NCBI GenBank assembly: GCA_003223835.1 | Contig: QHWR01000107.1 | Coordinates: 1 to 44,163 of the forward strand | DNA length: 44,163 nucleotides | Source of the DNA: Acidobacteriota bacterium | GTDB lineage: Bacteria > Acidobacteriota > Vicinamibacteria > Vicinamibacterales > 2-12-FULL-66-21 | Reading direction: 5' to 3' | Program-made: the position numbers and the translations under genes | Part shown: one piece after another, positions 14,043 through 43,854 of the stretch | How positions within the stretch are numbered: the first letter of the stretch is position 1 | How the letters are laid out: each line of letters begins with the position of its first letter | Notes under the pieces: generated by a model | Database searches by the model: none | The model's input: only the letters and a program-made list of their open reading frames with translations | What the model was told of the DNA's origin: nothing

Positions 14043-15271
14043 GATCGACGGGCAGGCGGCCGTTCTTCGCGGTTCTGATCGGCGTTGTCCTGGCAGGTGG
14101 CGCCGAGACCGCCGTCGCGCAGCAGCCCGCGTCCGGCGCCGACGCGCCGCGGTCCGGCCTGCTGATCTCGACCGACTCCGGGTACGACACCGCGGAGTCG
14201 GGTTCTGGCGACGCGCGCGCCGCTCGCCGCGATTCGCCCGGCCGGCTTCACGCCGAATGGTTTCGCCTGGCGTCGACGCGCCGATCCGTGGTGCGGTTCT
14301 GGACAGGCGTCACGGCTGGCGTCCCCGACAGCGATCGAACGCACGCCGAGGCGTTTGCCTTCGCGGCGTCGACGGTGCTGAGCCGGCGGACGCACTTCGA
14401 TTTCGACGCCCGCGTCAACGCGGCGCCGGTGGACCTGTTCTCGGCGCTCGGCAGCGCCGGGCCGTCCGCGACGCCGGTCACGACGACGTCGTCGTCGTTT
14501 ACGGAAGGGCGGATGATTACTTACGATGCGCGCGCCGTGCTGAGCCGGGCGCTTGGCGCCCGCACGTCGATGAACATCGAGTTGTCGCACACGGGGTCGT
14601 CCACCGAGCGCCGCGGCGTTCGCAACGAACGGATCGGCGGACTCGTGCGCCGTCGCATCGGACCGTTCTCGACGATCCGAGCCGGGTACGCGTTCGACGT
14701 CGCGGTGGCCGCATCGAGCGGCGCACAGGCGATCGATCGGCGTCATGACGTGGATCTCGGCGTCGACTACGCGCGGCCGCTGTCGTTTTCCCGCCATACG
14801 CAGATTGGGTTCGGGACCGGCACGTCGGTCCTGACGAACGCGACGGGACGTCGTTTACGGCTCGCGCTCTCGAGCAGTCTGGCGCGCGATTGGAGCCGCG
14901 CGTGGTCGGCGCGCCTGGAGTACAACCGTCCGATCGAGTACCTCGCCGGCTTTGCGCAGCCGTTTCTCTCGGACGCGGTGACGGTTGGAGCGAACGGACG
15001 CCTCGGGCGTCGTACGACGCTGACGCTCGCGTCAGGATTCTCTCGCGGCGGGGTCGGATTCGGCGCCACGCGACCGCAATTCTCGAGCCGATCCACGTCG
15101 GGCCGGCTCACGGTGCCGATGGGACGTGCGTGGGCCGTCGAGTTCGAGGCGCACGACGCCCGTTATCAGTTGGGAGCGGCCGTGCCGCTTCCGTCGTTCA
15201 TTCCGGAGCGGTTCGTTCGGCGCGGCGCGCGCATCGGGTTCGTGTGGTCGTCGCCGTGGACCGGACGCTGA
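14039..15271 (+). CDS. Outer-membrane beta-barrel protein of the EPS operon
   Basis: A 410-residue protein with a signal peptide (cleavage after ETAVAQ). The rest is an alternation of short amphipathic strands rich in Arg, Thr, Ser and Gly, such as TRRSVVRFWTGVTAGV and RLGRRTTLTLASGFSRGGVG, and it ends in aromatic-rich strands. No enzymatic motif is seen. A barrel gene at this place, between the export protein and the chain-length determinant, is usual in exosortase-associated EPS operons and may provide the pore. It is translationally coupled to the export gene. Confidence 0.72.
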   Translation: MRSTGRRPFFAVLIGVVLAGGAETAVAQQPASGADAPRSGLLISTDSGYDTAESGSGDARAARRDSPGRLHAEWFRLASTRRSVVRFWTGVTAGVPDSDRTHAEAFAFAASTVLSRRTHFDFDARVNAAPVDLFSALGSAGPSATPVTTTSSSFTEGRMITYDARAVLSRALGARTSMNIELSHTGSSTERRGVRNERIGGLVRRRIGPFSTIRAGYAFDVAVAASSGAQAIDRRHDVDLGVDYARPLSFSRHTQIGFGTGTSVLTNATGRRLRLALSSSLARDWSRAWSARLEYNRPIEYLAGFAQPFLSDAVTVGANGRLGRRTTLTLASGFSRGGVGFGATRPQFSSRSTSGRLTVPMGRAWAVEFEAHDARYQLGAAVPLPSFIPERFVRRGARIGFVWSSPWTGR

Positions 15272-15278
15272 GGTTCCC

Positions 15279-16880
15279 GTGCTACCTGGACGTCAATACC
15301 GCGTCGAAGACATCCTGCGCATCGCCTGGCGGCGAAAGTGGCTGATCGTGTTGCCGTTCGTGGTGATCTCGACCGCTACCGTGTTCGTCACCAAGCGGCT
15401 GCCAAACCAGTACCGATCGGAAACGGTGATCCTCGTCGTGCCGCAGAAGGTGCCCGAGAGCTACGTGCGATCCACCGTCAGCGGCCACATCGAGGATCGA
15501 CTGCAGTCGCTGCAGCAACAGATTCTGAGCCGCAGCCGCCTCGAGCGCATCATCGACGACTTCAATCTCTTCACCGCTCAGCGCCGCGTGAGGCCGATGG
15601 AGGCGATCGTCGAAGGGATGCGCGCGGCGATCAAGGTCGAAACGGTCCGGGGCGGCGACGCGTTCAGCGTGTCGTACACCGGGTCGGATCCGCTGATCGT
15701 GAAGGCGGTGACCGAGCGCCTCGCCTCGCTGTTCATCGAGGAGAACGTCCGCGACCGCGAGATGCTCGCGATCGGCACGAGCGATTTCCTGCAGACTCAG
15801 CTCGACGACGCACGCAAACGGCTCATCGAGCAGGAGAAGAGGCTCGAAGAGTACCGGCTCCGGTACGCGGGGCAGTTGCCGTCACAGGCGGCATCCAATC
15901 TTCAGGCGCTCCAGAACGGGCGCATGCAGCTCCAGGCGCTGGATGACGCGCTCGCCCGTGCGCGCGATCGGCAAGTGACGCTCGAGCGTGCGGTCGGGGA
16001 TCTTCTGGCGACCGAGACTCCGACGGCCGCGCCCGTCGCCGCGACGGCGCCCCCGCCGCCAGCCGCCAGCGGGGATCCGGCGGCTCTTGCGGGATCGACG
16101 CCGGCCGAACAGCTTCTCGACGCACGTCGCAGGCTGGCGGCGCTGGAGTCGCGGCTGCTGCCCGAGCATCCCGATATCGCGCGACTGAAGCGCCAGATCG
16201 CCCAGCTCGAACCGAAGGTCGCGGCCGACTCGGCAGCATCGGCCGCGACGACGCCGTCGGCGGCGGCGCGTCCCGCCCGCGACGCCGCGCAGGTGGCACG
16301 CGAGCGGCGCATTCGTGACATCAGGGCGGACCTCGATGCCATCGGACGCGAGATCGCCGCCCGCCAGAACGACCAGCAGCGCGTGCGGACCGAGATGGCC
16401 CTCTACCAATCCCGGCTCGACGCCGCGCCGATCCGCGAAGCGGAGATGACGGAGCTGACGCGCGACTACGACACCATCCAGCAAATCTACCGGGGACTTC
16501 TTGCCAAGCGTGAGGACTCGAAGGTTGCCGCGAACCTCGAGCAGCGTCAGGTCGGCGAACAGTTCCGGGTCCTCGACCCCGCGCGCGTGCCGGAGCGGCC
16601 GTTCAGCCCGGATCGCATGAAGCTCAATCTCATGGGAATCGCGTTCGGCCTGGTGCTCGGACTCGCGTCGGTGGCGGCGATCGAATACTTCGACACGAGC
16701 CTGAAGACGGAAGACGACGTCCGCACGGTGTTGTCGCTCCCGGTGATCGCGACGATTCCGCTGCTGACGCAGACGATGGGGGACGTGAGGGTGCGCGCCC
16801 GGCTGCGTTGGTCCTTTACCGCCGGTGCGGCGGCCATCGTGATCGCGATAGCCACGATCGTGTGGAGATTCAGGGGTTGA
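15279..16880 (+). CDS. Polysaccharide chain-length determinant (Wzz/GNVR family)
   Basis: A 533-residue inner-membrane co-polymerase. The first span (about residues 22-38) follows the Wzz start RQYRVEDILRIAWRRKWLIV. Long periplasmic coiled coils (about 170-270 and 340-430) are split by an Ala/Pro-rich loop. The GNVR-like region ends RVLDPARVPERPFSPDRMKL before the second span (about 446-466). A third hydrophobic segment closes the protein. The kinase domain is absent, being encoded by the next gene. GTG at 15279 with GAGG 6 nt upstream is preferred; the longer frame overlaps the barrel gene. It controls chain length and export together with the kinase. Confidence 0.87.
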   Translation: MLPGRQYRVEDILRIAWRRKWLIVLPFVVISTATVFVTKRLPNQYRSETVILVVPQKVPESYVRSTVSGHIEDRLQSLQQQILSRSRLERIIDDFNLFTAQRRVRPMEAIVEGMRAAIKVETVRGGDAFSVSYTGSDPLIVKAVTERLASLFIEENVRDREMLAIGTSDFLQTQLDDARKRLIEQEKRLEEYRLRYAGQLPSQAASNLQALQNGRMQLQALDDALARARDRQVTLERAVGDLLATETPTAAPVAATAPPPPAASGDPAALAGSTPAEQLLDARRRLAALESRLLPEHPDIARLKRQIAQLEPKVAADSAASAATTPSAAARPARDAAQVARERRIRDIRADLDAIGREIAARQNDQQRVRTEMALYQSRLDAAPIREAEMTELTRDYDTIQQIYRGLLAKREDSKVAANLEQRQVGEQFRVLDPARVPERPFSPDRMKLNLMGIAFGLVLGLASVAAIEYFDTSLKTEDDVRTVLSLPVIATIPLLTQTMGDVRVRARLRWSFTAGAAAIVIAIATIVWRFRG

Positions 16881-16885
16881 CGGCC

Positions 16886-17615
16886 ATGCATGATTTCGCA
16901 TCGAGCGTCGAGCAGCCGTTCCGGATCGCGCCCGTGGACCGGGGCAACGGCGTGCGCGCGACGATCGACCGCCTGCCGGGCAAGGTCGTGCTGAGCCCCG
17001 ACACGCCGTCCGCGGTCGTGGAGCAATACCGCCGGCTGGCGGCGACGCTGCACCACCAAAACGCTGACGGCCACCAACCTGGCCCTGACGCTCACCGAAT
17101 CGTTCCGCCGCCGCGTTCTCGTGATCGACGCGGATCTGCGCCGGCCGTCGATGCACCACACCTTCGGGTTGCCTAACAATACCGGGCTCAACGACGCGCT
17201 GCTCGGGCGCGACAACATGCCCACCGCCTTCGAGATGTCGTCCCGGCTCACCGTGCTGCCGGCAGGCTGCCCCAATCCGGATCCGATCGGCGTGCTCACG
17301 TCACCGGCGATGCGGCAGCTCGTCAAGTTCGCGAGGGACGGCTACGACTGGGTGCTCATCGACACGCCGCCGGTCGGTCTGCTGACCGACGCGCACCTCG
17401 TCGCCCAGATGGTCGATGCGGTCGTGATGGTGGTGAGCGCCGGCGCGGTGCCGTACCGGGTCGTCCAGCGCTCGGCCGACGCGCTCGGCCGCGACCGGAT
17501 CATCGGCGTCGTCCTCAATCGCGCGGCGGCGGCGCCGTTCGAGCGCGCGTATGGGTACGGCGGCTATGGCGGCTATTACGGTGCGCACTCGCACGAGGAT
17601 CAAGAACAGGCATGA
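16886..17615 (+). pseudogene. Bacterial tyrosine autokinase (CpsD/CapB-like), P-loop deleted and frameshifted
   Basis: The gene begins in one frame (MHDFASSVEQPFRIAPVDRG to EQYRRLAATLHH, ending near 17056). It continues in another frame from about 17058 with KTLTATNLALTLTESFRRRV, then the Walker A' segment LVIDADLRRPSMHH, Walker B WVLIDTPPV and the Tyr-rich tail YGYGGYGGYYG. Family members have about 20-25 residues at the junction, including the Walker A loop GEGKT. Here that segment is missing and the frame is broken, so no active kinase can be made from this sequence. The start lies just after the chain-length gene and the end overlaps the next start (ATGA), so the locus is otherwise intact. 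An assembly error cannot be excluded. Confidence 0.82.
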
Positions 17616-18985
17616 ACGGGTTTCTCGTCAGCCGGTTCACCTGGCGCTCGGCCACGCTCGTGATGTGCGAGGGCCTGCTGATCGCGGGAGCGATCGCGGC
17701 GGTCCTGCACGTTCGGCTCGGCGTGCCCGTCTGGCACAGCGCGGACGCCGGTCCGCTGGTCGGACGTCTGCTGCTGATGACGCTGATCTGCCAGGCGTGT
17801 TTGTACTACCGCGACCTGTACGAATTCCGCCTGCTCGCCACGCGCGCCGAATTGATCCCGCGCGTGCTCCAGTCCACGGCGGCGAGCGCCGTCGTCTTCG
17901 CCGCGCTGTCGATCTTCGCGCCCAGCCTCGTGATCGGGGATGGCGTGTTCGGCGCCTCGGCGGTGCCGGTCGTCGTGTGCGTCATCGCGTGGCGCCTGAC
18001 GTTCGATTGGTTGTCGCGCCGGATTCCGGCGCGCGAGCGGGTCCTGCTGCTCGGCGGCGGCGGCGCGGCGCTCGAGCTCGCACGCGAGTTGAACGGCCGC
18101 ACGGAAGGCGCGATCGAGGTCGTCGGCTTCGTCGCCGCTGACGGCGAGGCCGGCGTGGAGTCGCTCGGGACGATCGAAGACATTCCGGCGATCGTTCGCG
18201 GGCGGAACGTCGATCGCGTAGTGGTGAATCTGGCGGATGCACGCGGCAAGCTGCCGATGGACAAGCTGCTCGAGATGAAACTCGACGGCGTCCGGTTCGA
18301 CCATCTCGCGTCGATGTACGAACAGTACACCGGGCGCATCGCGATCGAGCATCTGCGTCCAAGCTGGCTGATTTTCTCGGAGGGATTCCGCAAGACGCGA
18401 CTGCTGCGGATGGCGAAGCGCCTCGTGGATATCGCCGGCGCGGCGCTCGCGCTCGCGCTCGCGGCTCCCGTGATGGCCGTCGTCGCGTGCATGGTTCGCT
18501 TGACGTCACGCGGCCCCGTCCTCTATCGGCAACGCCGCGTCGGCCAGGACGGCCGCGTGTTCACGGTTCGAAAGTTCCGGTCGATGCGACCGGACGCGGA
18601 GGCGGCGACGGGCGCCGTGTGGGCGGGCGAGAACGACGACCGCGTCACGAGCATCGGGCGCTTCCTCCGGCGGTCGCACCTCGACGAGCTGCCGCAGTTG
18701 TGGAACATCCTCGTCGGCGACATGAGCCTGGTCGGGCCGCGCCCGGAACGTCCCGAGTTCGTCAAGGACCTGACGAAGGCGATTCCGTTCTACGGGCAGC
18801 GGCACATCGTACGGCCGGGGCTCACCGGCTGGGCGCAGGTGCGCTACAGCTACGGCGCGAGCGTCGAAGACTCGATGCAGAAGCTGCAGTACGACCTCTT
18901 CTACATCAAACACATGTCGGTGGCGCTCGACGCCTACATCGTATTCAGGACCATCAAGAACGTCCTGCAAGGACGTGGCGTGTGA
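17612..18985 (+). CDS. Exopolysaccharide polyprenyl-phosphate sugar-1-phosphate transferase (priming enzyme)
   Basis: A 457-residue membrane enzyme of the WbaP/EpsB type. Four N-terminal spans (within residues 10-130) are followed by a Rossmann-like segment (VLLLGGGGAALELARELNGR), another hydrophobic segment (about 273-295) and the catalytic domain. That domain carries RRVGQDGRVFTVRKFRSMRP, RSHLDELPQLWNILVGDMSL and VGPRPERPEF. It transfers a sugar phosphate to undecaprenyl phosphate, the first step of EPS repeat assembly. The ending (VRPGLTGWAQVRYSYGASVE) fits the TIGR03013-like group of exosortase-associated loci. It is coupled to the kinase gene by ATGA and to the next gene by GTGA. Confidence 0.9.
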   Translation: MNGFLVSRFTWRSATLVMCEGLLIAGAIAAVLHVRLGVPVWHSADAGPLVGRLLLMTLICQACLYYRDLYEFRLLATRAELIPRVLQSTAASAVVFAALSIFAPSLVIGDGVFGASAVPVVVCVIAWRLTFDWLSRRIPARERVLLLGGGGAALELARELNGRTEGAIEVVGFVAADGEAGVESLGTIEDIPAIVRGRNVDRVVVNLADARGKLPMDKLLEMKLDGVRFDHLASMYEQYTGRIAIEHLRPSWLIFSEGFRKTRLLRMAKRLVDIAGAALALALAAPVMAVVACMVRLTSRGPVLYRQRRVGQDGRVFTVRKFRSMRPDAEAATGAVWAGENDDRVTSIGRFLRRSHLDELPQLWNILVGDMSLVGPRPERPEFVKDLTKAIPFYGQRHIVRPGLTGWAQVRYSYGASVEDSMQKLQYDLFYIKHMSVALDAYIVFRTIKNVLQGRGV

Positions 18986-19908
18986 TCATGGGGCAGCAGC
19001 GCGGCGCGGCAACGACCGACCGGATTGTCAATGCGATGACGGTCGACGTGGAGGAGTACTTCCACGTCACCGCCTTCGACGGCGTCCTCCCGCGCAGCCG
19101 CTGGGACACGCTCGAGAGCCGCGTCTGTGCGACGACGGATCGCGTCCTGCGGATCCTGGACGACGCCGGTGTGTCGGGCACGTTCTTCGTGCTGGGATGC
19201 GTTGCCGAGCGCCATCCGGACCTGGTCCGTCGCATCGCGGCGCAGGGCCACGAGATCGCGTCGCACGGCTACGCGCATCGGCTCGTCTACGATCAGACGC
19301 CTGCGGCGTTCCGCGCCGACGTCGTGCGAGCGAAGGCGATCCTCGAGGACGCGTCGGGAACGCCCGTCCTCGGATTCCGGGCGCCGAGCTATTCGATTAC
19401 GCCGCGGTCGCTGTGGGCGTTCGACGTGCTGATCGAAACGGGGCACGTCTACGACGCGAGCATCTTTCCGATCCATCACGATCGCTACGGCATTCCGGTG
19501 TCGCCGCGAGAGGCGTACGTCATCACGCGGGACGCTGGATCGCTCGTCGAGGTTCCCGCGACGACGTGCCGCTGGGCGGGGTTGAATCTGCCGGTCGGCG
19601 GAGGCGGATACTTCCGGCTCCTGCCGTACGCGTGGACGCGGTTCGGCATCGATCGCGTGAACCGCGTCGAGCGCCGTCCCGCGATCTTCTATATCCATCC
19701 CTGGGAGCTGGACCCGGAGCAGCCGCGGCTGCCCTGCGGGCTGTTGAGCCGCGTCCGGCATTATCGCAACCTGCACCTCACGGAGAGCCGGCTGCGCCGC
19801 CTGCTGCGCGATTTCCGGTTTGCGCCGCTGCGCGCGACCGTCAGCGCGCTGCCCCGGTCTCGGCCGGAGCGCTTGTCGACGGCTTACGCGCTGCCGTATC
19901 TGTGGTAG
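18982..19908 (+). CDS. Polysaccharide deacetylase with DUF3473 (exosortase-system type)
   Basis: A deacetylase of about 308 residues. The NodB core shows MTVDVEEYFHVTAFDG (catalytic Asp), GTFFVLGCVAERHPDLVRRI, the metal motif SHGYAHRLVYDQ and GFRAPSYSITPRSLWAFDVL. The C-terminal DUF3473 segment has RRPAIFYIHPWELDPEQPRL and the closing HYRNLHLTESRLRRLLRDF. This combination is the TIGR03006-like family that marks PEP-CTERM/exosortase EPS clusters. GTG at 18982 overlaps the previous stop and has AAGGA 8 nt upstream; ATG at 18988 is the alternative. It is the last gene of the forward operon and probably trims N-acetyl or O-acetyl groups from the polymer. Confidence 0.88.
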   Translation: MIMGQQRGAATTDRIVNAMTVDVEEYFHVTAFDGVLPRSRWDTLESRVCATTDRVLRILDDAGVSGTFFVLGCVAERHPDLVRRIAAQGHEIASHGYAHRLVYDQTPAAFRADVVRAKAILEDASGTPVLGFRAPSYSITPRSLWAFDVLIETGHVYDASIFPIHHDRYGIPVSPREAYVITRDAGSLVEVPATTCRWAGLNLPVGGGGYFRLLPYAWTRFGIDRVNRVERRPAIFYIHPWELDPEQPRLPCGLLSRVRHYRNLHLTESRLRRLLRDFRFAPLRATVSALPRSRPERLSTAYALPYLW

Positions 19909-22655: not shown

Positions 22656-24049
22656 AGGATTCCCTCCGACGCGAGCGCCGCCAGCGTCTGCGCAGGAACC
22701 GCGCAGACAACTTCCTGGTACTTGCCGGATGTCGGGTTGCGCGGAATGTCCGCGACGACACGCACGCGAATCGCAATCTGGGTCCCCATGATCGAGCGCA
22801 CCTCGTTCACGATGTCCTCCCGAATCGTCGCGGGGGCGCCGGGTTGGAGGACGACGTGAACGTCGAGCGAAGCAATGTCCGATTGCACGAACTGCGCGTC
22901 CGTGATGGACGGCTGCTCCCAGAAGAGATCCGTCAGCATCAAACCGGCAACCGGCGTGCCGTCCGCGCGGTAGAGCGTGTCGGCGACGCGCCCGTGCAGG
23001 GCGGAAAACGTCGGCAGCGCGCAGCCACACCCGCACGGGGACGACGAGGGCATCGCGAGGTCGCCCGTCGCATAGCGAATCAGGGGCATCCCGTAGTTCA
23101 GCAGATCCGTCGTGACGATTTCGCCCGACTCTCCCGGATGGGCGGCGCGGCCGCTCCGGAGGATCTCGACGAGCACGCTGCCCGCATCCACGTGAAAGCC
23201 GTCGTGCCGCTCGCATTCGAAGCCGACGCAGCCGTGTTCCCGCGAGCAGTACAGGTTGAAGACCTCGCCGCCGAACCGTTCCTGAAACAGCGCGCGTTGA
23301 GACGGGCGGAGCGTCTCGGCGGTGCAGATGACGCGCGCTACGCGCACGCGGGCGAGTCCCTCGCGATCGATGAACCTGGCGAACTGCTCGATCGCATTCG
23401 GATAGCCGTACAGGACCGACGGGCGAAACGCTTGCAGGCGGCGGTGGTAGTCGAGCATCTCCTCGCGCCGCATCACCGTGCAGCAGGCCACCGCTTCGGC
23501 GCAGCCGAACTGACGGAAGCGCTGTTTGAGCCGTCCGGTGGCGTCCGGCGGCCGTAGGTCCGCATGCGCTCCCCAAATCAGCGCGCGCTTGTCCCCGGGC
23601 CGGTAACCGCAGCGTTCGAGCACGCCCCACTGGCGCCCGAAGCGTGCGACGGAACACCCCGTGTCGCGGTAGAACGCCGTCTGAACCCCGGTTGTGCCGC
23701 CGGTGTAGTCGAGCCGGAGCGCCGCCGGGTCGAAGCGCTCGGAGACGAAGTCCATTTTTCGCTCGCGGAGCTCGCGCTTCGTGACAAGCGGAAGCCGGCG
23801 CAAATCCTCGACGGTCGTCGTCAGCGACGGCACGAACCCCGCGGCCTTCCACGTCTCACGGTAGTAGGGGGCCGTCGCGTACGCGTGGACGAGGAGACGG
23901 CGCAACGCGTCGAGCGCGTGCCGCTCGATCTCGCGCGGTCCGGATCGCGACAACGTACGAAACCGCCGGCGGTGCGGCTTCCAGCCGGCGAGTCCGTCTC
24001 TCCGCGTCACGACGTCGTACGCGAGGCTTCTCAGGCGCGTCATCGTCAT
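22652..24049 (-). CDS. CapK/PaaK-like adenylate-forming enzyme 2
   Basis: A 465-residue member of the phenylacetate-CoA-ligase-like/CapK group. It shows the phosphate-binding motif LDYTGGTTGVQTAF, LYCSREHGCVGFECERHDGF, MPLIRYATGDLAMP followed by a Cys cluster (CGCGCALP), and a C-terminal domain with the Lys-bearing motif NPTSGKYQEVV. It is intact, unlike its relative at 19932. Two such enzymes, a carrier-thioesterase protein and two asparagine synthetase-like genes together hint at acyl or aminoacyl decoration of the polymer (inference). It starts at ATG 24049, overlapping the asparagine synthetase stop by one base (TGATG); an in-frame GTG lies at 24052. Confidence 0.83.
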   Translation of the reverse strand: MTMTRLRSLAYDVVTRRDGLAGWKPHRRRFRTLSRSGPREIERHALDALRRLLVHAYATAPYYRETWKAAGFVPSLTTTVEDLRRLPLVTKRELRERKMDFVSERFDPAALRLDYTGGTTGVQTAFYRDTGCSVARFGRQWGVLERCGYRPGDKRALIWGAHADLRPPDATGRLKQRFRQFGCAEAVACCTVMRREEMLDYHRRLQAFRPSVLYGYPNAIEQFARFIDREGLARVRVARVICTAETLRPSQRALFQERFGGEVFNLYCSREHGCVGFECERHDGFHVDAGSVLVEILRSGRAAHPGESGEIVTTDLLNYGMPLIRYATGDLAMPSSSPCGCGCALPTFSALHGRVADTLYRADGTPVAGLMLTDLFWEQPSITDAQFVQSDIASLDVHVVLQPGAPATIREDIVNEVRSIMGTQIAIRVRVVADIPRNPTSGKYQEVVCAVPAQTLAALASEGIL

Positions 24050-25923
24050 CACATGAAGCGCTCGTACCAGTTCTGGAACATGACCAGCGCGAAGAGCTGG
24101 CGGTCGTGGGACTCGCGGCGGCTCATGTGCGCGTCGATCAGAGTCCGCACGCCCTCTTCGTCAAAGAGGCCGTGCGCGGCGAGACGTCGAGGCGACAGCG
24201 TGTCGCAGACGTACTCGCGAAGATCGCCCCTGAGCCAGGCCGCCATCGGCGACGCGAAACCCTGCTTTCGATGGTTGAGCACTCCTTCAGGCACCAGGTC
24301 GCGCGCGACTTGCTTCAGCAGGTATTTCTTCGTGACGGACCGCAGTTTGAGCGACGACGGGATCGTCGCGCAGAACTCGACGAGCGTATGGTCCAGGAAC
24401 GGCACGCGAAGCTCGAGGCCGTAGCGCATGCTCAGTCGATCGCTCAGCGCCAGAATGTCTTCCGGGACGTACGAGTGGAGATCGTGATACGCCGCGCGAT
24501 CCAGGAGATCCATCGCGAACGGCGCCTCGAACAGCTGCGTGTCCGTGGCGCCATCTCGATCGGGCAGCGCGCCGGGACGGCAGACGCGCTGTTTCAGACG
24601 CTCGTTGAAGACCGTCACGTAATCGAGATATCGCCGCGACGCGGGCAGATGCGCCGATCGGACGAAGCGCTTCAGATGATTGACGGTGTAATGACCGTCC
24701 TGGCGCTCGGCCAGCTTGTTGACGAGCGGCGCCACGACGCCGCGTCGCAGGAACGACGGCAGCCGCTCGTACTGCGCGCTCAGCTTGAGGCCGAGGTATC
24801 GCTCGTAACCGGCGAACAGTTCGTCGCCTCCCAGGCCCGTCAACGCGACGGTGACGTGCGCCCGGGCCAGCTTGCAGATGTAGTAGCTCGGCACGACGGA
24901 ATCGTCTCCGAACGGCTCGTCGAAGCTCTCGACGACGTCGTGGAGCATTTCCTCGAGGTTCGGTTCGACCTCGAACTCCGTGTGAATCGTCCCGTATCTC
25001 CGGCTGACCGAGCGGGCATAGACCCGTTCGTCGAGGTAGCCTCCGACGCTGCCGCCGAACCCGATCGTGAACGTCTTGATCGGCCCTGCCGCGCATGCGT
25101 TCATCAACGCGACGACGAGGCTCGAATCGACGCCGCCGCTCAGGAACGCGCCAAGCGAAACGTCGCTCATCAAATGCGTCCGAACCGCGTCGGAGAACAA
25201 TTCGAGGAACCGCCGCCCGAGCGCGGATTCATCCGGCTCCTGGACGGGGTTGAACCGGAGCTGCCAGTACCGCTTCGTCTCGGTCCGTGAGCCCTCGCAG
25301 ATCAGGAGATGGGCGGGGTCGAGCTTCCGGATTTCCTTGTAGATGGTCAGCGGGGACGGGATGTACCCGAAGGTCAGGTACCGATCGAGGGCTTCGCGAT
25401 CGAGATGAAGCTGGAACACGCCCGACCGCGCGAGCGCCTTGATCTCCGATCCGAAGAGCACGTACTTGCCGTTTCGGGCGTAAAAAAGCGGTTTGATGCC
25501 CAGCCGGTCGCGGCCAAGAATCAGACGCTGGCGCCGTTCGTCCCACAAGGCGAACGCGAACATCCCGCTGAGACGCGCGACGAACCGCTCGCCCAGGTCT
25601 TCATAGAGATGGACGATCACTTCGACGTCGCTGCGGGTCCTGAAGACATGGCCCGCGGCCTCGAGCTCGCGGCGCAATTCCTGGTGGTTGTAGATTTCCC
25701 CGTTGCAGACGACCGTGACCTGGCCGTCCTCGCTCGAGATCGGCTGATGCCCGCCCATGACGTCGATGATCGAGAGCCGCGCCATGCCCATCTGCAGCCG
25801 GTTCGCGAAGTGAAATCCCTCGTCGTCCGGACCTCGATGCCCGATGGCGCGCACCATCTGCGTGACGATCTCCCGTTCGGGAGTCGCGCCCTGCAGGTCG
25901 TAGACGCCGGCGATGCCACACAT
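24049..25923 (-). CDS. Asparagine synthetase (glutamine-hydrolysing)-like enzyme 1
   Basis: A 624-residue AsnB-family protein of normal length. The class II glutaminase domain begins MCGIAGVYDLQG with the nucleophile Cys2 and has HRGPDDEGFHF and VVCNGEIYNHQELRREL. The synthetase domain carries the pyrophosphate loop FLSGGVDSSLVVALM, LTGLGGDELFAGYERYLG and MRYGLELRVPFLDHTLVEF. In polysaccharide loci such proteins often amidate sugar carboxylates or make amino-acid amides instead of asparagine for protein synthesis. It is coupled on both sides (TGATG with the upstream GT and with the CapK-like gene). A second gene of the same family starts at 44030. Confidence 0.92.
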   Translation of the reverse strand: MCGIAGVYDLQGATPEREIVTQMVRAIGHRGPDDEGFHFANRLQMGMARLSIIDVMGGHQPISSEDGQVTVVCNGEIYNHQELRRELEAAGHVFRTRSDVEVIVHLYEDLGERFVARLSGMFAFALWDERRQRLILGRDRLGIKPLFYARNGKYVLFGSEIKALARSGVFQLHLDREALDRYLTFGYIPSPLTIYKEIRKLDPAHLLICEGSRTETKRYWQLRFNPVQEPDESALGRRFLELFSDAVRTHLMSDVSLGAFLSGGVDSSLVVALMNACAAGPIKTFTIGFGGSVGGYLDERVYARSVSRRYGTIHTEFEVEPNLEEMLHDVVESFDEPFGDDSVVPSYYICKLARAHVTVALTGLGGDELFAGYERYLGLKLSAQYERLPSFLRRGVVAPLVNKLAERQDGHYTVNHLKRFVRSAHLPASRRYLDYVTVFNERLKQRVCRPGALPDRDGATDTQLFEAPFAMDLLDRAAYHDLHSYVPEDILALSDRLSMRYGLELRVPFLDHTLVEFCATIPSSLKLRSVTKKYLLKQVARDLVPEGVLNHRKQGFASPMAAWLRGDLREYVCDTLSPRRLAAHGLFDEEGVRTLIDAHMSRRESHDRQLFALVMFQNWYERFM

Positions 25924-26957
25924 CAGTGGACCTCTTGTTTCAGCAGCGCACAGAGCGCGTCCCGGCGCGTCGTCCACTCGGCGCGCAAGTCGCGCCTGAG
26001 GGCCGCCATCTCGCCGGCGAGCTGCCGGCGCATCCCGAGCGCACGCGTGATCGCGGCGGCGTGCAAGACGGGATCGTGGGCGGAATAGATCGTGCCGTTT
26101 CTGAAGTACTGCCGGAGCGCCGGCGTGTCCGACGTCACGAGGGGTTTGGCGAGCGCGACCGCTTCGTAGGCGCCGCACACCAGGCAGTCGTCCATCATCG
26201 TGAGGTCCACGATGACGTCGGCGCGGGCCAGGAGCTGCTCGTACGCGCTCTCGGAAAGAAAGCCCGTCAGATGCACGTGCGAGGGGACCGCCACCGCACG
26301 TTTCATGCGCCGCGGATTACCCGTGACGTAAAGATCGATCGATGGTCCGATCAGACGCGCGGCGTCGATCACTTCCAGAAACGGCTCGTCCGGAGCGTAG
26401 GTGCACACGAACACGACCGCTGGGCGCGCCGCGTTTTCAAGCGCGTGCGGTCGAACGGCGAGGCCCGGGATCCTGTCCGGCAATGCGAAGGCCCGGCCGC
26501 CGTGCTGCTCGACGACGCGTTTCAGCGCGTCGTTGCTGACGACGCTGACGTCCGCCGTACGGTGGATGAATCGAAGGGCCGCCAGGTACAACCTCCCCGA
26601 ATAGTTGAACGGCACGACCGCTTCGTTGTGCAGGTCGGCGACGAGCCGGTAGCCGAACGCGTGCTTCAACAGCGAGACCCAGACGCCGAGGAGCACCGAC
26701 GGACACTGCACCAGAAGAACTGACGGACGTCGTCGCGCGAGGCGCCAGACCGTCTGCCAGAGCAGAATCGGGTATCTCACAAGCCAACGGGACCGGGACG
26801 TCAACTCGACGAGCTCCGCGTGGAGTGAACGCGACAATTCACGCGTCCGCCGGTGGCGCTCCCACGAGATCCAGACGGCGCCGTCCGGCAGACGCTCCGC
26901 CGGAGCGAACGCCCTCACCGTTTCAGGTGCAACGCGGGACAACTCTGCGCCAATCAT
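25923..26957 (-). CDS. Glycosyltransferase, GT4-like
   Basis: A 344-residue protein with two Rossmann-like halves. The first contains ARRRPSVLLVQCPSVLLGVW and LVADLHNEAVVPFNYSGRLY. The second contains VVFVCTYAPDEPFLEVIDAA and VDLTMMDDCLVCGAYEAVAL-AKPLVTSDTPALRQYF, corresponding to the donor-binding region of GT4 enzymes although the usual ExxxxxxxE motif is relaxed. The start is ATG 26957, 5 nt after the stop of the upstream GT2 gene; the longer frame upstream is antisense-like. Specificity is unknown. Confidence 0.75.
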   Translation of the reverse strand: MIGAELSRVAPETVRAFAPAERLPDGAVWISWERHRRTRELSRSLHAELVELTSRSRWLVRYPILLWQTVWRLARRRPSVLLVQCPSVLLGVWVSLLKHAFGYRLVADLHNEAVVPFNYSGRLYLAALRFIHRTADVSVVSNDALKRVVEQHGGRAFALPDRIPGLAVRPHALENAARPAVVFVCTYAPDEPFLEVIDAARLIGPSIDLYVTGNPRRMKRAVAVPSHVHLTGFLSESAYEQLLARADVIVDLTMMDDCLVCGAYEAVALAKPLVTSDTPALRQYFRNGTIYSAHDPVLHAAAITRALGMRRQLAGEMAALRRDLRAEWTTRRDALCALLKQEVH

Positions 26958-26962
26958 CGTTC

Positions 26963-36252: not shown

Positions 36253-37638
36253 ATGAAGACCGCGCAGCGCGTGATGTTGTTGGAATTCAACGAGCTTTCG
36301 CCCCAACTGATGGATCGGTTCATGGGGGAGGGACACCTGCCCAACTTCCGTCGGCTGCGCAGCGAGTCGCAGATTTACGTCACCGAAGCCGCGGAGCGCG
36401 GCTGGGAGCTGAACCCCTGGGTGCAGTGGGTCACGGTGCACTCGGGCCTGGATTATCAGGACCACGGGATCACCGAGCTCGACGAGGGCGCGAAGCTCCA
36501 GGCGGAACGGGTGTGGGACGTCGTGTCCCAGGCGGGACTGCCGGTGTGGGTCTGCGGAAGCATGAACGTGGCGTACCGCCAGCCGGTCAACGGTCTCGTG
36601 ATGCCGGATCCCTGGACGACGAAAGTCCCTCCCTCCGACACGCTGCAGCCGTTCTTTCGATTCGTGAGACAGCACGTCACCGAACATACGAAGGACTCGC
36701 TGCCGCTCGGCCGCGCCGATTACCTGAGATTCGGGGCGTTCATGCTTCGCCACGGACTGTCGTTCGCCACCGTCGCGGCGATCGTCCGTCAGCTCGTGTC
36801 GGAACGGACCACCCCGGACCAGTACTGGAAGCGCGCCGTGCTCCTCGACAAGCTGCAGTTCGACGTCTTTCGCTGGTACTACCGGAAGACGAAGCCGGCC
36901 TTCTCGACGTTCTTCTCGAACAGCACCGCGCACTATCAGCACTATTACTGGCGGGAAATGGAACCGCACCTCTTCAAGGTGCAGTCCACGCCGGAGCAGG
37001 TCGCCGCGCACGAGAAGGCGATCCTGTTCGGGTACCGGGAAATGGACACGATGATGGCGAAGGCGCTCGCGCTCGCGGGGCGCGACACGGCCGTCATCTT
37101 CGCGACCGCGATCAGCCAGCAGCCGTGCCTGGTTTATGAGGAGCAGGGAGGGAAGGTCATCTACCGGCCGCGCGACTTCGAAGCATTGATGAACTTCGCG
37201 GGCGTGACCGAATCGTATTCAATCGCGCCCGTGATGGCCGAAGTATTCAACATCCACGTCCCGAGGGAAGAGGACGCGGCGCGCGTGGAGGCGAAGCTCG
37301 CCGCGCTGCACTCGGGCGGACGTCCCGCGATGCAACTCCTTCGCACGGGTACCATCATCAACGCGAAGTGCCGGCTCCACGAGAAGCTGCCGCTCGACAC
37401 GGCGCTTGGCCGGAAGGATTCGGCGCAAACCGTACCGCTGTTCGACGTCTTCTACCAGATCGAGGACTTGAAGAGCGGGATGCATCATCCGGACGGCATG
37501 CTGTGGATCCGGCTGCCGGACAAAGGGCATCAGCTCCACACGACGAAAGTGCCGCTCGCGTCGCTCGCGCCGACGATGCTCAGGCTGCTGTCGCTGCCGC
37601 GGCCGTCCCACATGAAGGCCTCGCCGATCGCGCTCTAG
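36253..37638 (+). CDS. Alkaline-phosphatase-superfamily protein, cytoplasmic
   Basis: A 461-residue protein without signal peptide. The start RVMLLEFNELSPQLMDRFMG with LPNFRRLRSES is the AlkP/phosphodiesterase-superfamily N-terminus; further matches are PAFSTFFSNSTAHYQHYYWR and the closing LASLAPTMLRLLSLPRPSHM. The usual metal ligands are only partly visible: Asn replaces the first Asp/Ser cluster, and the expected DHG-like region reads ATAISQQPCL. The activity may therefore be altered. Related proteins appear in polysaccharide islands, but their role is not established. The gene is convergent with the next one; the stop codons overlap in CTAG. Confidence 0.72.
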   Translation: MKTAQRVMLLEFNELSPQLMDRFMGEGHLPNFRRLRSESQIYVTEAAERGWELNPWVQWVTVHSGLDYQDHGITELDEGAKLQAERVWDVVSQAGLPVWVCGSMNVAYRQPVNGLVMPDPWTTKVPPSDTLQPFFRFVRQHVTEHTKDSLPLGRADYLRFGAFMLRHGLSFATVAAIVRQLVSERTTPDQYWKRAVLLDKLQFDVFRWYYRKTKPAFSTFFSNSTAHYQHYYWREMEPHLFKVQSTPEQVAAHEKAILFGYREMDTMMAKALALAGRDTAVIFATAISQQPCLVYEEQGGKVIYRPRDFEALMNFAGVTESYSIAPVMAEVFNIHVPREEDAARVEAKLAALHSGGRPAMQLLRTGTIINAKCRLHEKLPLDTALGRKDSAQTVPLFDVFYQIEDLKSGMHHPDGMLWIRLPDKGHQLHTTKVPLASLAPTMLRLLSLPRPSHMKASPIAL

Positions 37639-39398
37639 CAACGCGCGTGGGTGAGGACCGAATCGATGGCGTCCACGATGCGGCGATAGGCGGCCTCGAC
37701 CGCCGCCGCGTCCTTGCGATAGGGATCCGGAATCTGAACGTCTGCTGAATCGGAAGACTCGATCGCGCCCAGCAGATACAGCTTTCCCGCGGAATCCGGA
37801 TAGCGTTTGCGGACCTCCTCGAGGTTCGTCCGATCCATCACGAAGATCAGATCCGCCCATCGAATGAGATCCTCGCTGAGCGGCTTCGATCGGTGCGATG
37901 ACAAATCGATGTTCCAGCCGCGACCCGCCGCGATCGCGCGCGGATCGGCTTCGCGGTCTTGCCGGTCGTAAATCCCGGCGGACGTCGTCTCGATGCGGGA
38001 CCCGTTGCCGGACGTCCGCCGCGCCAGGTACGCGCTCGCGAAGGGGCTGCGGATGATGTTTCCGTAGCAGACGAAGAGCAGCTTCTCCACGGCAGGAAGT
38101 GTCTGGACGAGCACGTTCCTGCGGCGCAATCGGTACCAGCGCGAGCTGAGGCGGCCGGCGCCGCGCGCGATGCGCCGCTTGACGCCGCGTAACTGCTCGA
38201 CGGCCGTTTGCCACAGATCCACGGCGCCCGGAACGGGATCCCAGAACACCTGCACGTCATAGTGTTCCGCGGGGGATGCCATGCGGACGGCTTCGCGCAG
38301 CAACGTGCCGATGGAGCGCGGCCGTACGAATCCTGCCAGGACCGCCGGATCGCGCGGATCGACGCTGAGGTTCGCTTTGAACCACTCGATGTCGTCACGC
38401 AGTCGCCGGCATCGCACGCCGGACCTGTACGGACGCGGCGCGGACGTTTTCTCCCGCACGAGCATCTCGTAGAGATCTTTCGCGAAACACATGCCGGCGC
38501 GCGAGGACAAGGGGAGCGAACCCCAGAAGCGGCCGTTGATTTCCATCAGGCTGGCGGCGCCCGTTTCGTCGTTCACCTTGAACTCGATCATCGCCACGCC
38601 GGTCCAGCGGAGCGCCCCCATCAGCCGGGCTGCATACTCACGCAACGTCCGATCGACGGGGACGCTCATGCGGTACGTGCTGCCGCCACCGGTGAGCGGC
38701 AATTCGTGGAGGCGGCGATGCTGGAAGACCTGGAGGAGCTCGCCGTTTCGGGCGAGCACTTCGACGCCGACGCCAATGCCTTGCGTGTACTCCTGCAGGA
38801 TGACCGGACAGACGTCGATCCGCGCCAGGACTTCGGCCCGCAGCTCGCGGCGATCGAAGGCATAGAAGACGGGAAAGCTTCGAAAGCCCGATGGCGCCCA
38901 GACACTCGACGACAGGGGCTTGCACGCGATCGGGAATTGCAACGTCTCGGCGCGTCTCTCGAGGTCGTCCGCCGATCGGACGACCACGCTCGCCGGCGCT
39001 GGAACGCCGACCGTGCGGGCGAGCTGCAGCGTGCTGGCCTTGTCGCACACGATCTGCATCTTGTCGAACGACTCGGTGGCCAGGGTCGACAAGGTTCCCA
39101 GCCGGTCGAGGTTTTTGGAGATTGGAACGACCGTCAGGTCCGTGACCGGAATGACCAGACTGCAGCGATCGCGTCTCAGCGTTTCTTCCAGCCATTCGAT
39201 GAAGGCGGCCGGGGCGTCAGCGGGGTCCGGATACGTGACGCATGCGCGCGCGAAGCGGCTCCTGAACGCGACGGCGTCCTTGCAAGGGGCGCCCGCCGTC
39301 ACGGACACGCCGGCCCTGCCGAGCCCTCGAACGATGTCGAGCGCCGGGATCTTGTCCCCGTCGAGAACTAGAACGTGGCCGTGCGCCATGCCCGCCAT
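37635..39398 (-). CDS. ATP-grasp ligase fused to a low-molecular-weight protein tyrosine phosphatase
   Basis: 587 residues with two joined parts. The first 330 residues form an ATP-grasp carboxylate-amine ligase: VLVLDGDKIPALDIVRGLGR, VCDKASTLQLARTVGVPAPA, FPIACKPLSSSVW and the metal site MEINGRFWGSLPLSS. After a linker, residues about 440-585 are a low-molecular-weight phosphatase with CX5R motif VCYGNIIRSPFAS (Cys and Arg intact) and general-acid region IPDPYRKD. In EPS systems such phosphatases oppose the tyrosine autokinase (at 16886 here, itself broken). Fusion to ATP-grasp is unusual and suggests coupling of a ligation step to phosphorylation control. Two ATG starts are possible (39398, 39389); both overlap the deacetylase gene upstream. 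Confidence 0.85.
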   Translation of the reverse strand: MAGMAHGHVLVLDGDKIPALDIVRGLGRAGVSVTAGAPCKDAVAFRSRFARACVTYPDPADAPAAFIEWLEETLRRDRCSLVIPVTDLTVVPISKNLDRLGTLSTLATESFDKMQIVCDKASTLQLARTVGVPAPASVVVRSADDLERRAETLQFPIACKPLSSSVWAPSGFRSFPVFYAFDRRELRAEVLARIDVCPVILQEYTQGIGVGVEVLARNGELLQVFQHRRLHELPLTGGGSTYRMSVPVDRTLREYAARLMGALRWTGVAMIEFKVNDETGAASLMEINGRFWGSLPLSSRAGMCFAKDLYEMLVREKTSAPRPYRSGVRCRRLRDDIEWFKANLSVDPRDPAVLAGFVRPRSIGTLLREAVRMASPAEHYDVQVFWDPVPGAVDLWQTAVEQLRGVKRRIARGAGRLSSRWYRLRRRNVLVQTLPAVEKLLFVCYGNIIRSPFASAYLARRTSGNGSRIETTSAGIYDRQDREADPRAIAAGRGWNIDLSSHRSKPLSEDLIRWADLIFVMDRTNLEEVRKRYPDSAGKLYLLGAIESSDSADVQIPDPYRKDAAAVEAAYRRIVDAIDSVLTHARC

Positions 39399-41426: not shown

Positions 41427-42622
41427 GCGCGATGCGGATTCAGCTCCTGACGTCCGCCGCCGAGTGGGGCGGCACCGAGATGCACACGCTGCAGCTCGCG
41501 CAGACGCTGGGCGATCGCGGGCATGACGTCACCATCGTGGAGCTCGCGCGTCCGGCGTACGAACGCGCCGCCGAGGCCGCCGGTCTGCGCGCGAAGATCG
41601 TGCGGTCGGCGAACCCGCGCAACGGCGCGCGCCGGGGATGCGTCGGCTGGTGGCGCACGCTTCGCCAGTTCGACGGCGACGTCTGCGTCCTCGTGAAAGG
41701 GTTCATCGAGGTCGGCACGTGGCAGCTCGACCTCGCCGCTCGCCTGCGCTTCCCGCGCTACGTGACGATCGAGCACCTCACCGGCGTCATGCCGCCGCGC
41801 ACCACGGGACGGCACGTCTGGGGCATGGTGCCCGGCGTCGGCCTCTGGTGGTACCGCACCATCGTGGCACGCGCCGCGCGGGGCTGGTGGCCCGAGCGCA
41901 TCGTCTGCGTCAGCGACTCGGTGCGGAACGAGCTCGCGACCCGCTATCGCTTCAGTCCGGACAAGCTCGTCACGATCCCGAATGGCGTGAACGTCGATCG
42001 GTTTCAGCGCGACCGTGCCGCGGGCCGCTCGCTCCGGCGCACGTGGCGCATTCCTGAAGACGCGTTCGTGTTCGGCGCGGTGGGACGGCTCAGCGGCATG
42101 AAACGATTCCAGCATGCGCTCGACGCGTTCGCGCGGGTGTGTCAAGCGACGCGCCGGGACGTCCGGTTCGTCCTCGCCGGCACCGGGCCGCTGCGCGAAG
42201 CGCTCGAAGATCAAGTCCTCCGGGCCGGCATCTCGCACCTCGTCACGTTCCCGGGGTACACCGATCGTCCCGAGCAGGTGTACTCGGCGCTGGATGTCTT
42301 CGTGATGCCGAGCCGCAACGAGGGTCTGCCGCTTGCGCTGCTCGAGGCGATGGGGTGCGAATGCTGTCCTGTCGCCGCTTCCGTCGGGGGCGTGCCCGAA
42401 GTGTTGGACGACCCGTCGCTCGGATGGCTCGTGCCCGCCGAGGACGACGAACGCTTCTTCGGCGCGATGCAGGCCGCGGCGGGATTGGCGGCGTCCGACC
42501 TTGCCGCGATGGGCGTCCGCGCACGCGCGCGCGTGGTCGAGCGGTTCGACGCGCGGATGCAGTTCGCCGCGATCGCGGACGTCATCGAACAGCCCGGTGC
42601 ACCCGGTCAGGTCGCAAGATAG
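41423..42622 (+). CDS. Glycosyltransferase, GT4 family
   Basis: A 399-residue GT4 enzyme. It starts MRIQLLTSAAEWGGTEMHTL with the classic GGTE loop, has VCVSDSVRNELATRYRFSPD-KLVTIPNGVNVDRF, VFGAVGRLSGMKRFQHALDA, FVLAGTGPLREALEDQVL and PSRNEGLPLALLEAMGCECC with both Glu residues. It is complete. Its start overlaps the GT2 stop, and its 3' end overlaps the convergent thioesterase gene by 16 bp. Confidence 0.88.
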   Translation: MSAMRIQLLTSAAEWGGTEMHTLQLAQTLGDRGHDVTIVELARPAYERAAEAAGLRAKIVRSANPRNGARRGCVGWWRTLRQFDGDVCVLVKGFIEVGTWQLDLAARLRFPRYVTIEHLTGVMPPRTTGRHVWGMVPGVGLWWYRTIVARAARGWWPERIVCVSDSVRNELATRYRFSPDKLVTIPNGVNVDRFQRDRAAGRSLRRTWRIPEDAFVFGAVGRLSGMKRFQHALDAFARVCQATRRDVRFVLAGTGPLREALEDQVLRAGISHLVTFPGYTDRPEQVYSALDVFVMPSRNEGLPLALLEAMGCECCPVAASVGGVPEVLDDPSLGWLVPAEDDERFFGAMQAAAGLAASDLAAMGVRARARVVERFDARMQFAAIADVIEQPGAPGQVAR

Positions 42623-43746
42623 CGCCGCACCAGTGCCGCCGTCGCGCCGACACCAGGCTCTTCCAGCATCGTCAGATGTCCGCCGGGCATGTCGTGCACC
42701 GACATCCCGCCGGTGGCGAGGCCCGACCAGTGCGGCACCGGGTCTTTATCCGCCATGGCTCGGAACAGCACGATCGGTCCGTCGTAACTCGACGGCGTGT
42801 ACATCGAGAGCAATCGGTTGCCGGTCTTGAGATTGGCGGCGCAGCGGTACATCAGATCCGGCGGAACCGGTTCGCCGTTCGTGCGGCCCCGCCGCCGAAC
42901 GATGTCGTGAGCGCGCGAGGACGCGTCGCGCAGGCCGCCGCCGACACCGCGAAGCAGACCCAGCACTTCCGATTTGTTGCTTCGGATCTTCTCCGACACG
43001 TACCGGACGGCGTCTCCCGCCGGAAGCGTCGAGGCATGACTCAGATGGGATTTGACGCGGTGCCGCAAGGGTGCGGGGCCGACACCGACGATCCCGCTGG
43101 CTGCCGCTTCCGGATTCGCGTCGTTGCGGACGAAGGCGCTGAAAAGCAGCACGGGGTCGCAGCGTTGCCCCTGCGCTCGAAGCTGCCGCGCCATCTCGAA
43201 CGCGACGGTCCCTCCGAAGGAACCCCCGCCGAGGCTGTATGGACCATCGGGCTGAACGGACATTACGAGCGCCAGATACCGCGCCGCGACCTCCTCCATG
43301 CTTCCGAAGCGGTGGAACGGATGGCCGAGGCCATCATCAGAGGCTTCCGCCCTGAGGGCAAAAACCGGACGATCGGGCGCCAGCCGCGCGGCGAGCGCAC
43401 GGTAGAAGAAGACGTAGCCTCCCCCCGCGTGGATAAGGAACAACGGGCGCTCCTTGCCGCGCGGTTGAAGGCAGACGACCAGCGCCGACGGCGGTTGCGC
43501 GTTGTCTTCGATCAGGCGTGACATGGCTGCCACGGTCGGTCTCGTGCCGATCTCGCTGACCGGCAGCCCCTCCGCGAGCAGACCGAACGCAGCCCGAATG
43601 GTTTCGAGTCCCTGCGCGAGCAACGCCGGATCCGCGCCGAGCTCGACAAGCGAATCATGAGCGCCGACAGGCGCGACGTTCAGCAGCTGTTCCCAGATCT
43701 CTTGCACTCTCCGTTCGACGGGCGACTGGCCGGGTGACGCAGACAT
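42607..43746 (-). CDS. Carrier-like domain plus thioesterase (type I TE) protein
   Basis: 379 residues. Residues 1-85 have the acyl/peptidyl-carrier fold (VERRVQEIWEQLLNV, DSLVELGADPALLAQGL). The attachment Ser of the usual GGDSL motif is Pro40, so no phosphopantetheine arm can be attached. Residues about 100-379 are an alpha/beta-hydrolase thioesterase of the non-ribosomal peptide synthetase type: PLFLIHAGGGYVFFYRALAA, nucleophile Ser176 in SLGGGSFGGT, and His357 in MPGGHLTMLEEP. In an EPS island it could release or transfer acyl or aminoacyl groups for polymer decoration, perhaps with the CapK-like enzymes (inference). ATG at 43746 is chosen because a sigma-54 element lies just upstream. 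Confidence 0.82.
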   Translation of the reverse strand: MSASPGQSPVERRVQEIWEQLLNVAPVGAHDSLVELGADPALLAQGLETIRAAFGLLAEGLPVSEIGTRPTVAAMSRLIEDNAQPPSALVVCLQPRGKERPLFLIHAGGGYVFFYRALAARLAPDRPVFALRAEASDDGLGHPFHRFGSMEEVAARYLALVMSVQPDGPYSLGGGSFGGTVAFEMARQLRAQGQRCDPVLLFSAFVRNDANPEAAASGIVGVGPAPLRHRVKSHLSHASTLPAGDAVRYVSEKIRSNKSEVLGLLRGVGGGLRDASSRAHDIVRRRGRTNGEPVPPDLMYRCAANLKTGNRLLSMYTPSSYDGPIVLFRAMADKDPVPHWSGLATGGMSVHDMPGGHLTMLEEPGVGATAALVRRYLAT

Positions 43747-43785
43747 ACGGGTCCGTTCATTGGGTGGGGGCCCGTCGTGCCCATC

Positions 43786-43801
43786 CGCAAGGTTCGTGCC
43801 C
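43786..43801 (-). promoter_or_regulatory. Sigma-54 promoter element of the thioesterase gene
   Basis: The reverse strand reads GGGCACGAACCTTGCG, close to TGGCACG-N4-TTGC. The predicted start near 43775 leaves a leader of about 29 nt before ATG 43746. Confidence 0.62.
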
Positions 43802-43854
43802 CCCGGGCCGCCGTCAGAGCATCCCGTTGCCACGCATCCGGTCTGGCGCCGTCA

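Follow-up and report, generated by a model that had tools for sequence, protein, structure and literature searches.

It is an open question how bacteria that decorate a surface polysaccharide keep this in step with polymerising and exporting it, and the polymer structures of XrtA bacteria are largely unknown. One gene in a 44,163-nucleotide stretch of DNA (contig QHWR01000107.1, hereafter the window; its genome is G000, and other genomes and loci carry G and L numbers) raises this question in concrete form. Its minus-strand open reading frame (ORF), 37635-39398, encodes 587 residues plus a stop; a helix rich in basic residues links an ATP-grasp enzyme, at the N-terminal end, with a low-molecular-weight (LMW) tyrosine phosphatase of the LMWPc family. 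Why should a single chain carry both? The answer that we tentatively prefer, while giving it somewhat less than an even chance, is that the protein is a tailoring ligase for an XrtA-type exopolysaccharide that brings its own tyrosine phosphatase, so that decoration is coupled to a reset of export or polymerisation. Both domains are known; their combination is apparently undescribed, having no NCBIfam equivalog above its cut-off and no mention in the titles or abstract openings of the open-licence papers that we searched.

Architecture of the fusion protein

The original prediction, that an ATP-grasp ligase is fused here to an LMW tyrosine phosphatase, is borne out by an uninterrupted frame in which both domains score above their Pfam cut-offs. 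The N-terminal ATP-grasp domain (residues 5-385; 38244..39386, minus strand, as for all parts of this gene) is placed by fold matches and by ATPgrasp_Ter (PF15632), which covers residues 198-333 (E 2e-8, 34.8 bits against a cut-off of 29.1). It contains the metal/ATP motif MEINGRFWG at residues 285-293 (38520..38546). There follows a helix, residues 388-436 (38091..38237), with 11 Lys or Arg and 2 Asp or Glu residues, and then the phosphatase domain at residues 438-585 (37644..38087), matched by LMWPc (PF01451) over residues 441-579 (E 8e-24, 84.9 bits against 23.2). The phosphatase P-loop, CYGNIIRS (residues 444-451, 38046..38069), is without the second Cys of CxGNICRS; the general-acid motif DPY, within PDPY, occupies residues 558-560 (37719..37727).

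Key residues are kept in both halves, as had been claimed from the presence of MEINGRFWG, the CX5R loop and DPY. When 14 of the fusion proteins were aligned (one as a partial row), K120, K160, E272, E286, N288 and R290 of the ATP-grasp half were invariant, as were W292 and G293, also of MEINGRFWG. We take K120, K160, E272, E286 and N288 to be the ATP- and Mg-binding residues, namely the two Lys, the acidic residues and the Asn of ExN. In the phosphatase half, C444, G446, N447, I448, R450, S451, D558 and P559 were likewise invariant, and the linker was basic throughout (8-18 Lys plus Arg, 0-7 Asp plus Glu).

Two structure models were built. The first, from four sequences, is the weaker (predicted local distance difference test, pLDDT, 70.9); the second, from 14 sequences (pLDDT 88.9; predicted template modelling score, pTM, 0.73), lays out an N-terminal ATP-grasp domain to about residue 385, a single long helix at 388-436 and the phosphatase. 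In the second model the ATP-grasp half matched 2pn1 (Z 29.0, root-mean-square deviation (rmsd) 2.6, 289 residues aligned), the PurK protein 10bm (Z 28.8, rmsd 3.7, 336 aligned), PylC 4ffr (Z 28.1, rmsd 2.9, 294 aligned) and, slightly lower, the L-amino acid ligase 3vot (Z 27.4, rmsd 3.5, 335 aligned), which was also the top Foldseek match, with PylC next. Fold and ATP/Mg residues together make assignment to the carboxylate–amine/thiol ligase superfamily well supported. The fold is alike over approximately residues 4-402 in carbamoyl-phosphate-synthase-like proteins of ATPgrasp_Ter/PRK12767, in PylC and in L-amino acid ligases (3vot, RizA), and these proteins share the invariant residues, including the ExN motif. 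The fusion differs from them in its additional C-terminal phosphatase and in its identity of only 11-18% to the solved structures listed. No NCBIfam equivalog cut-off was reached by the fusion protein, and no Ter gene was found among the window ORFs scanned with Pfam, which are a part of the total.

A score over the Pfam cut-off, a CX5RS loop and the general-acid Asp of the DP motif place the C-terminal half in the LMWPc family. Its fold comparisons come from the first, weaker model, since the structural match list of the second was filled by ATP-grasp proteins: Thermus TT1001 (2cwd; Z 24.8, rmsd 1.4, 145 aligned), YwlE (4kk4; Z 24.1, rmsd 1.5, 147 aligned) and Vibrio Wzb (7dhe; Z 23.9, rmsd 1.2, 142 aligned, 32% identity). 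Wzb-type proteins were the best sequence matches in the PDB, with YwlE and AmsI close behind; the Wzb equivalog NF007520 was not reached (64.7 bits against a curated cut-off of 243). YwlE is an arginine phosphatase whose fold matches the domain as well as that of Wzb does; every one of the 18 fusions found has Ile at P-loop position five, which we take to mark the tyrosine type. With the Wzb and AmsI phosphatases of bacterial tyrosine kinase (BY-kinase) systems the domain shares CX5RS, DPY and the Wzb fold, and it departs from them in not being free-standing and in the P-loop substitution considered next.

A gene at 36253-37638 on the plus strand converges with the fusion gene, overlapping it by 4 nt, and gave a sub-threshold type I phosphodiesterase match (E 0.02).

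A phosphatase loop without its second cysteine

At the position of the second Cys of CxGNICRS the 18 fusions carry Asn (12), Met (3), Ile (2) or Cys (1), and 17 of them read C(Y/H)GNI(N/M/I)RS. Five LMWPc domains fused to glycosyltransferases of family 4 (GT4) have Ile there and a deacetylase-fused domain has Cys; stand-alone LMWPc proteins of these loci have Cys in seven of eight cases and Tyr in L250. Judged by this loop, the fused domains make up a type. In classical LMW phosphatases the second P-loop Cys serves as redox partner, and because it is replaced, the fused type is probably without that switch.

Distribution and phylogeny

The fusion is present in 18 distinct genomes: that of the window, nine Porticoccaceae, four in the phylum of L037 and four in the order to which G806 belongs. 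When genome contigs were scanned, three more full-length homologues with 34-38% identity in the best segment turned up among 80 loci kept, in the Porticoccaceae metagenome-assembled genomes (MAGs) L034 and L035 and the Planctomycetota MAG L037. L034 belongs to Pseudomonadota, and the phylum of the window likely differs from both of these. Profile searches gave spanning matches in the window's own genome but in no other of the 396 searched in its phylum (threshold 1e-20); in two of 369 of L034's class, G806 being one, and four of 343 in L037's phylum, one of them frame-broken (G1012) (both 1e-35); and in four of 197 in G806's order and nine of 112 in L035's family (both 1e-60), where a tenth (G1432) is cut by a contig end. 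There was no spanning match in 99 related genomes, of which 11 share the family of the window's genome and 88 its order. The fusion is thus patchy, rare near the window and commoner in Porticoccaceae, a pattern that suggests horizontal spread. Absence from orthologous loci, which had been named as refuting the original prediction, is what was found near the window and counts partly against it, while distant lineages do carry the fusion.

In a tree of the ATP-grasp sequences of 52 of 53 loci (L248 was too short), the 18 fused rows form one clade (bootstrap/Shimodaira–Hasegawa-like approximate likelihood ratio test, 100/95) with a single unfused member, L259, inside it. The corresponding LMWPc tree (148 columns, 14 background rows) is poorly resolved and is compatible with one origin of the phosphatase domain as well as with several; filtering by length and E-value had dropped most background loci, and hand-listed duplicates were skipped together with the non-duplicate L161. 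An apparent triple fusion in some Porticoccaceae, with a third, hydrolase domain in frames of 870-875 residues, was discarded when stop-to-stop translation gave 571-576 residues and two domains.

Gene neighbourhood

Directly upstream of the fusion lies a polysaccharide deacetylase gene (PF01522; 39368..40549, minus strand) with TIDDG and HTCTH motifs, which overlaps the fusion start at 39398 by 31 nt and whose own true start is probably further in. The same-strand overlap agrees with the proposal that a deacetylase shares the operon. Neighbours were then counted in 39 loci, obtained by hand dereplication (14 of 53 were dropped) and not independent, with distances taken between profile-matched segments. 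The neighbour families were defined by home-made profiles seeded on proteins from this analysis; L236, one of two seeds of the looser PDA2 profile, had no Pfam match. Of the 39 loci, 30 have a deacetylase-profile match no more than 7 kb from the ATP-grasp gene. In 17 the distance is at most 400 nt, and 16 of these have both genes on one strand. Three of the 17 (L260, L262, L267) rest on PDA2, leaving 14 without them. Binomial values computed for such counts used simple null models of our own, either uniform or with two of fourteen slots. Pattern searches found a TFDDG-type first motif in 41 of 45 deacetylase-profile ORFs and H-x3-H or a like motif in all 42 stronger matches. Most other polysaccharide genes were less often adjacent: the control genes DegT (1/11), AsnB (0/7), FemAB (0/8) and GT2 (2/22) had few adjacent copies, GT4 (11/38) and flippase (3/10) more.

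Phosphatases keep to this neighbourhood in other arrangements also. Eleven of 29 unfused loci have an LMWPc within 7 kb, nine of them within 1.7 kb. A separate LMWPc gene stands beside the ATP-grasp gene in L150, L156 and L250 and about 1.5 kb off in L263-L265. In four loci of the window's phylum a GT4–LMWPc fusion directly follows the ATP-grasp gene (L114:11748-13556, L147:9531-11429, L148:7137-9050, L149:8562-10466), and a deacetylase–LMWPc fusion (L256:6449-8008, minus strand, genome G762) adjoins an ATP-grasp gene in divergent orientation. A single phosphatase family is in this way attached to three enzymes that share a neighbourhood, and outside the window's genome, too, genes for ligase, deacetylase and phosphatase occur together.

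In L151, L152, L155, L159 and L260 the ATP-grasp gene of the family stands beside a PHP-profile gene, with no LMWPc within 7 kb. PHP-profile genes were adjacent in five of five cases; the call is confirmed by Pfam (PF02811) in L151 and comes from a home-made profile in the others. In these five loci the pattern is suggestive of a PHP hydrolase that possibly fills the slot of the LMWPc.

The exopolysaccharide locus and its tyrosine kinases

The window is supported as an exopolysaccharide locus by an XrtA-system deacetylase scoring above its curated cut-off (18487..19908, plus strand; TIGR03006, 387.8 bits against 276.2) and by a BY-kinase gene with a tyrosine-rich tail (16886..17615, plus strand; TIGR01007). 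The kinase domain at 17052-17567 scores 114.1 bits against a cut-off of 108.05 and its tail, AYGYGGYGGYYG, is intact. A chain-length determinant (Wzz, GNVR; 15126..16880, plus strand) is also present. The two CapK-like genes (19932-21137 and 22652-24052) and the thioesterase named in the original prediction were found, the latter as a carrier-protein–thioesterase protein (42607..43833, minus strand). Two AsnB-like enzymes had been named as well. The amidotransferase at 24049..26178 (minus strand) was the only match in the window to a home-made AsnB profile, and the other ORF, 25926-27590, is weakly GT-like. The XrtA deacetylase is what the window shares with known XrtA/PEP-CTERM exopolysaccharide loci; none of the NCBIfam models examined describes the fusion protein. 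Two other fusions lie in XrtA loci: XrtA, FemAB, kinase and deacetylase exceed their cut-offs in the G806 region, as do acyl-CoA ligase, decarboxylase, acyltransferase and FemAB in that of G456.

Kinase linkage was tested in 13 of the 18 fusion genomes plus five others. A BY-kinase-type domain lies on the same contig within 45 kb of the fusion in seven of the 13 (G000, G456, G457, G806, G1238, G1326, G1445), with three of these (G456, G457, G1445) scoring below the cut-off, at 87-100 bits. The six linked kinases outside the window have 5-7 tyrosines in their last 60 residues; the unlinked BY-kinase of G458 has none there. G1012, G1059, G1442 and G1333 showed no linked kinase, but their fusion contigs measure only 10-21 kb.

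In G000, a 93% complete draft assembly of 400 contigs, the only further LMWPc match is ArsC-like (CVHNAGRS), beside a gene that reads as arsenite methyltransferase-like. The fused domain is thus the sole candidate found in that genome, and a BY-kinase, although frame-broken, is found in the same locus.

Proposed mechanism and alternatives

We infer the amide chemistry, the substrates of the ligase, the target of the phosphatase and the coupling of the two activities as follows. The neighbouring deacetylase would act on an amino sugar in the repeat unit and expose its amine. An amino acid or similar carboxylic acid, activated by the ATP-grasp domain in the form of an acyl phosphate, would then be joined by that domain to the exposed amine; it is the deacetylase neighbourhood that points to an amide at this position. 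The tethered phosphatase would dephosphorylate tyrosines in the exopolysaccharide machinery, the likeliest targets being the Tyr-rich tail of a BY-kinase or a phosphorylated biosynthetic enzyme; they are proposed because of the likeness to Wzb and the kinase linkage. We hypothesise that ligase and phosphatase are coupled in this way, so that the export or polymerisation machinery is reset at the site of decoration.

Several observations weigh against this scheme. PurK folds score as high as or higher than amino acid ligases, so the fold does not fix the ligase substrate. The frame of the window's BY-kinase is broken upstream, near the Walker A region, and no Walker A is readable where relatives have one, through either mutation or assembly error. 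No BY-kinase match was found near the fusion on the 334-kb contig of G913, or on the 68-kb contig of G458, whose fusion is close to a contig end. In G000 four BY-kinase-type domains exceed the cut-off and a single non-ArsC LMWPc was found, so not every such kinase has an LMWPc of its own. The GT4-fused LMWPc of L114 is without a DP-aromatic motif, and for a fifth GT4–LMWPc fusion (L160:5928-7823) no ATP-grasp profile match was found in the stretch fetched. Above all, a second LMWPc with the P-loop CRHNICRS is present in all five of the nine Porticoccaceae fusion genomes that were tested. In G456 (where it adjoins XrtA-associated genes), G457, G1445 and G1435 it shares the fusion's contig at a distance of about 18-25 kb; in G1442 it is on another contig. 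This speaks against the fusion as a simple replacement for Wzb, and the label 'kinase-antagonising phosphatase' in the original prediction is accordingly not the full account. Taken together, the interpretation given in that prediction is partly supported.

Two alternatives are the main ones. In the first, the tether would serve co-location and stoichiometry alone, with both activities belonging to the exopolysaccharide machinery and neither controlling the other. The phosphatase domain occurs on three partners (ATP-grasp, GT4 and deacetylase), as though the choice among members of the machinery hardly mattered, and also as separate adjoining genes (L150, L156, L250), which lends this some weight; yet the ATP-grasp fusion has been kept in one clade across distant lineages, albeit with the unfused L259 inside, and we regard co-location as the whole explanation as somewhat unlikely. 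In the second, which we consider unlikely, the target is not a protein. The phosphatase would in that case act on a small phosphorylated intermediate of the pathway, such as a phospho-sugar or the phospho-acid of the ligase, which would agree with the separate LMWPc kept by the five Porticoccaceae, with a P-loop in the fused domains that differs from the one in that LMWPc, the second Cys being replaced in 17 of 18 fusions, and with the PHP-type gene beside ATP-grasp in the five loci without LMWPc. Against it, sequence comparison with solved structures puts Wzb-type protein tyrosine phosphatases first and YwlE and AmsI shortly after, and seven of the 13 genomes tested have a linked BY-kinase-type domain with a Tyr tail.

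The ATP-grasp half might also be a kinase, making the chain a bifunctional kinase/phosphatase like PPIP5K, whose kinase domain is an ATP-grasp. PPIP5K is reported to join a kinase domain and a phosphatase domain in one chain. It differs in having another class of phosphatase and in its eukaryotic inositol chemistry; moreover, the Pfam, NCBIfam and fold matches of the fusion are carbamoyl-phosphate-synthase-like proteins and ligases, and a deacetylase neighbourhood suits a ligase. We consider a kinase very improbable. The 400-contig assembly and the broken kinase frame in the same window could, finally, arouse suspicion of an assembly or annotation artefact. The frame of the fusion is open without stops, however, and 17 other genomes carry the fusion, with a broken frame in G1012 and, in G806, G1238 and G1433, on contigs of 2.4-4.4 Mb; with homologues in other genomes, an artefact is already refuted and keeps hardly any probability.

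Returning to the tailoring ligase with its own phosphatase, a conserved physical link between a probable amide ligase and a tyrosine phosphatase, with a deacetylase often adjoining, makes coupling testable in one protein, and the gene trio offers a handle for finding exopolysaccharides decorated with aminoacyl or acyl amides in XrtA bacteria. It is tempting to speculate further that exopolysaccharide assembly has a mobile checkpoint domain in the LMWPc subfamily whose P-loop lacks the second Cys (mostly C-x-G-N-I-[NMI]-R-S). Any enzyme present from a module of deacetylation and reacylation (ATP-grasp, GT4) would carry it, such that tyrosine dephosphorylation, and hence polymerisation or export, would proceed only where the repeat unit is decorated. 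In so general a form we think the idea unlikely.

Further neighbouring genes

In Porticoccaceae, eight loci (L034, L035, L241-L246) have an alpha/beta hydrolase gene just after the fusion, and in six of those eight and in L247 a polysaccharide pyruvyl transferase gene comes before it; these neighbours were checked with Pfam in L034. Elsewhere in the window's genome, G000:C148:28265-31255 (L002, L003) contains two further ATP-grasp-like stretches with Pfam scores under the cut-off, one of them on a phosphatidylserine-decarboxylase-like protein, and a YdjC-family gene follows.

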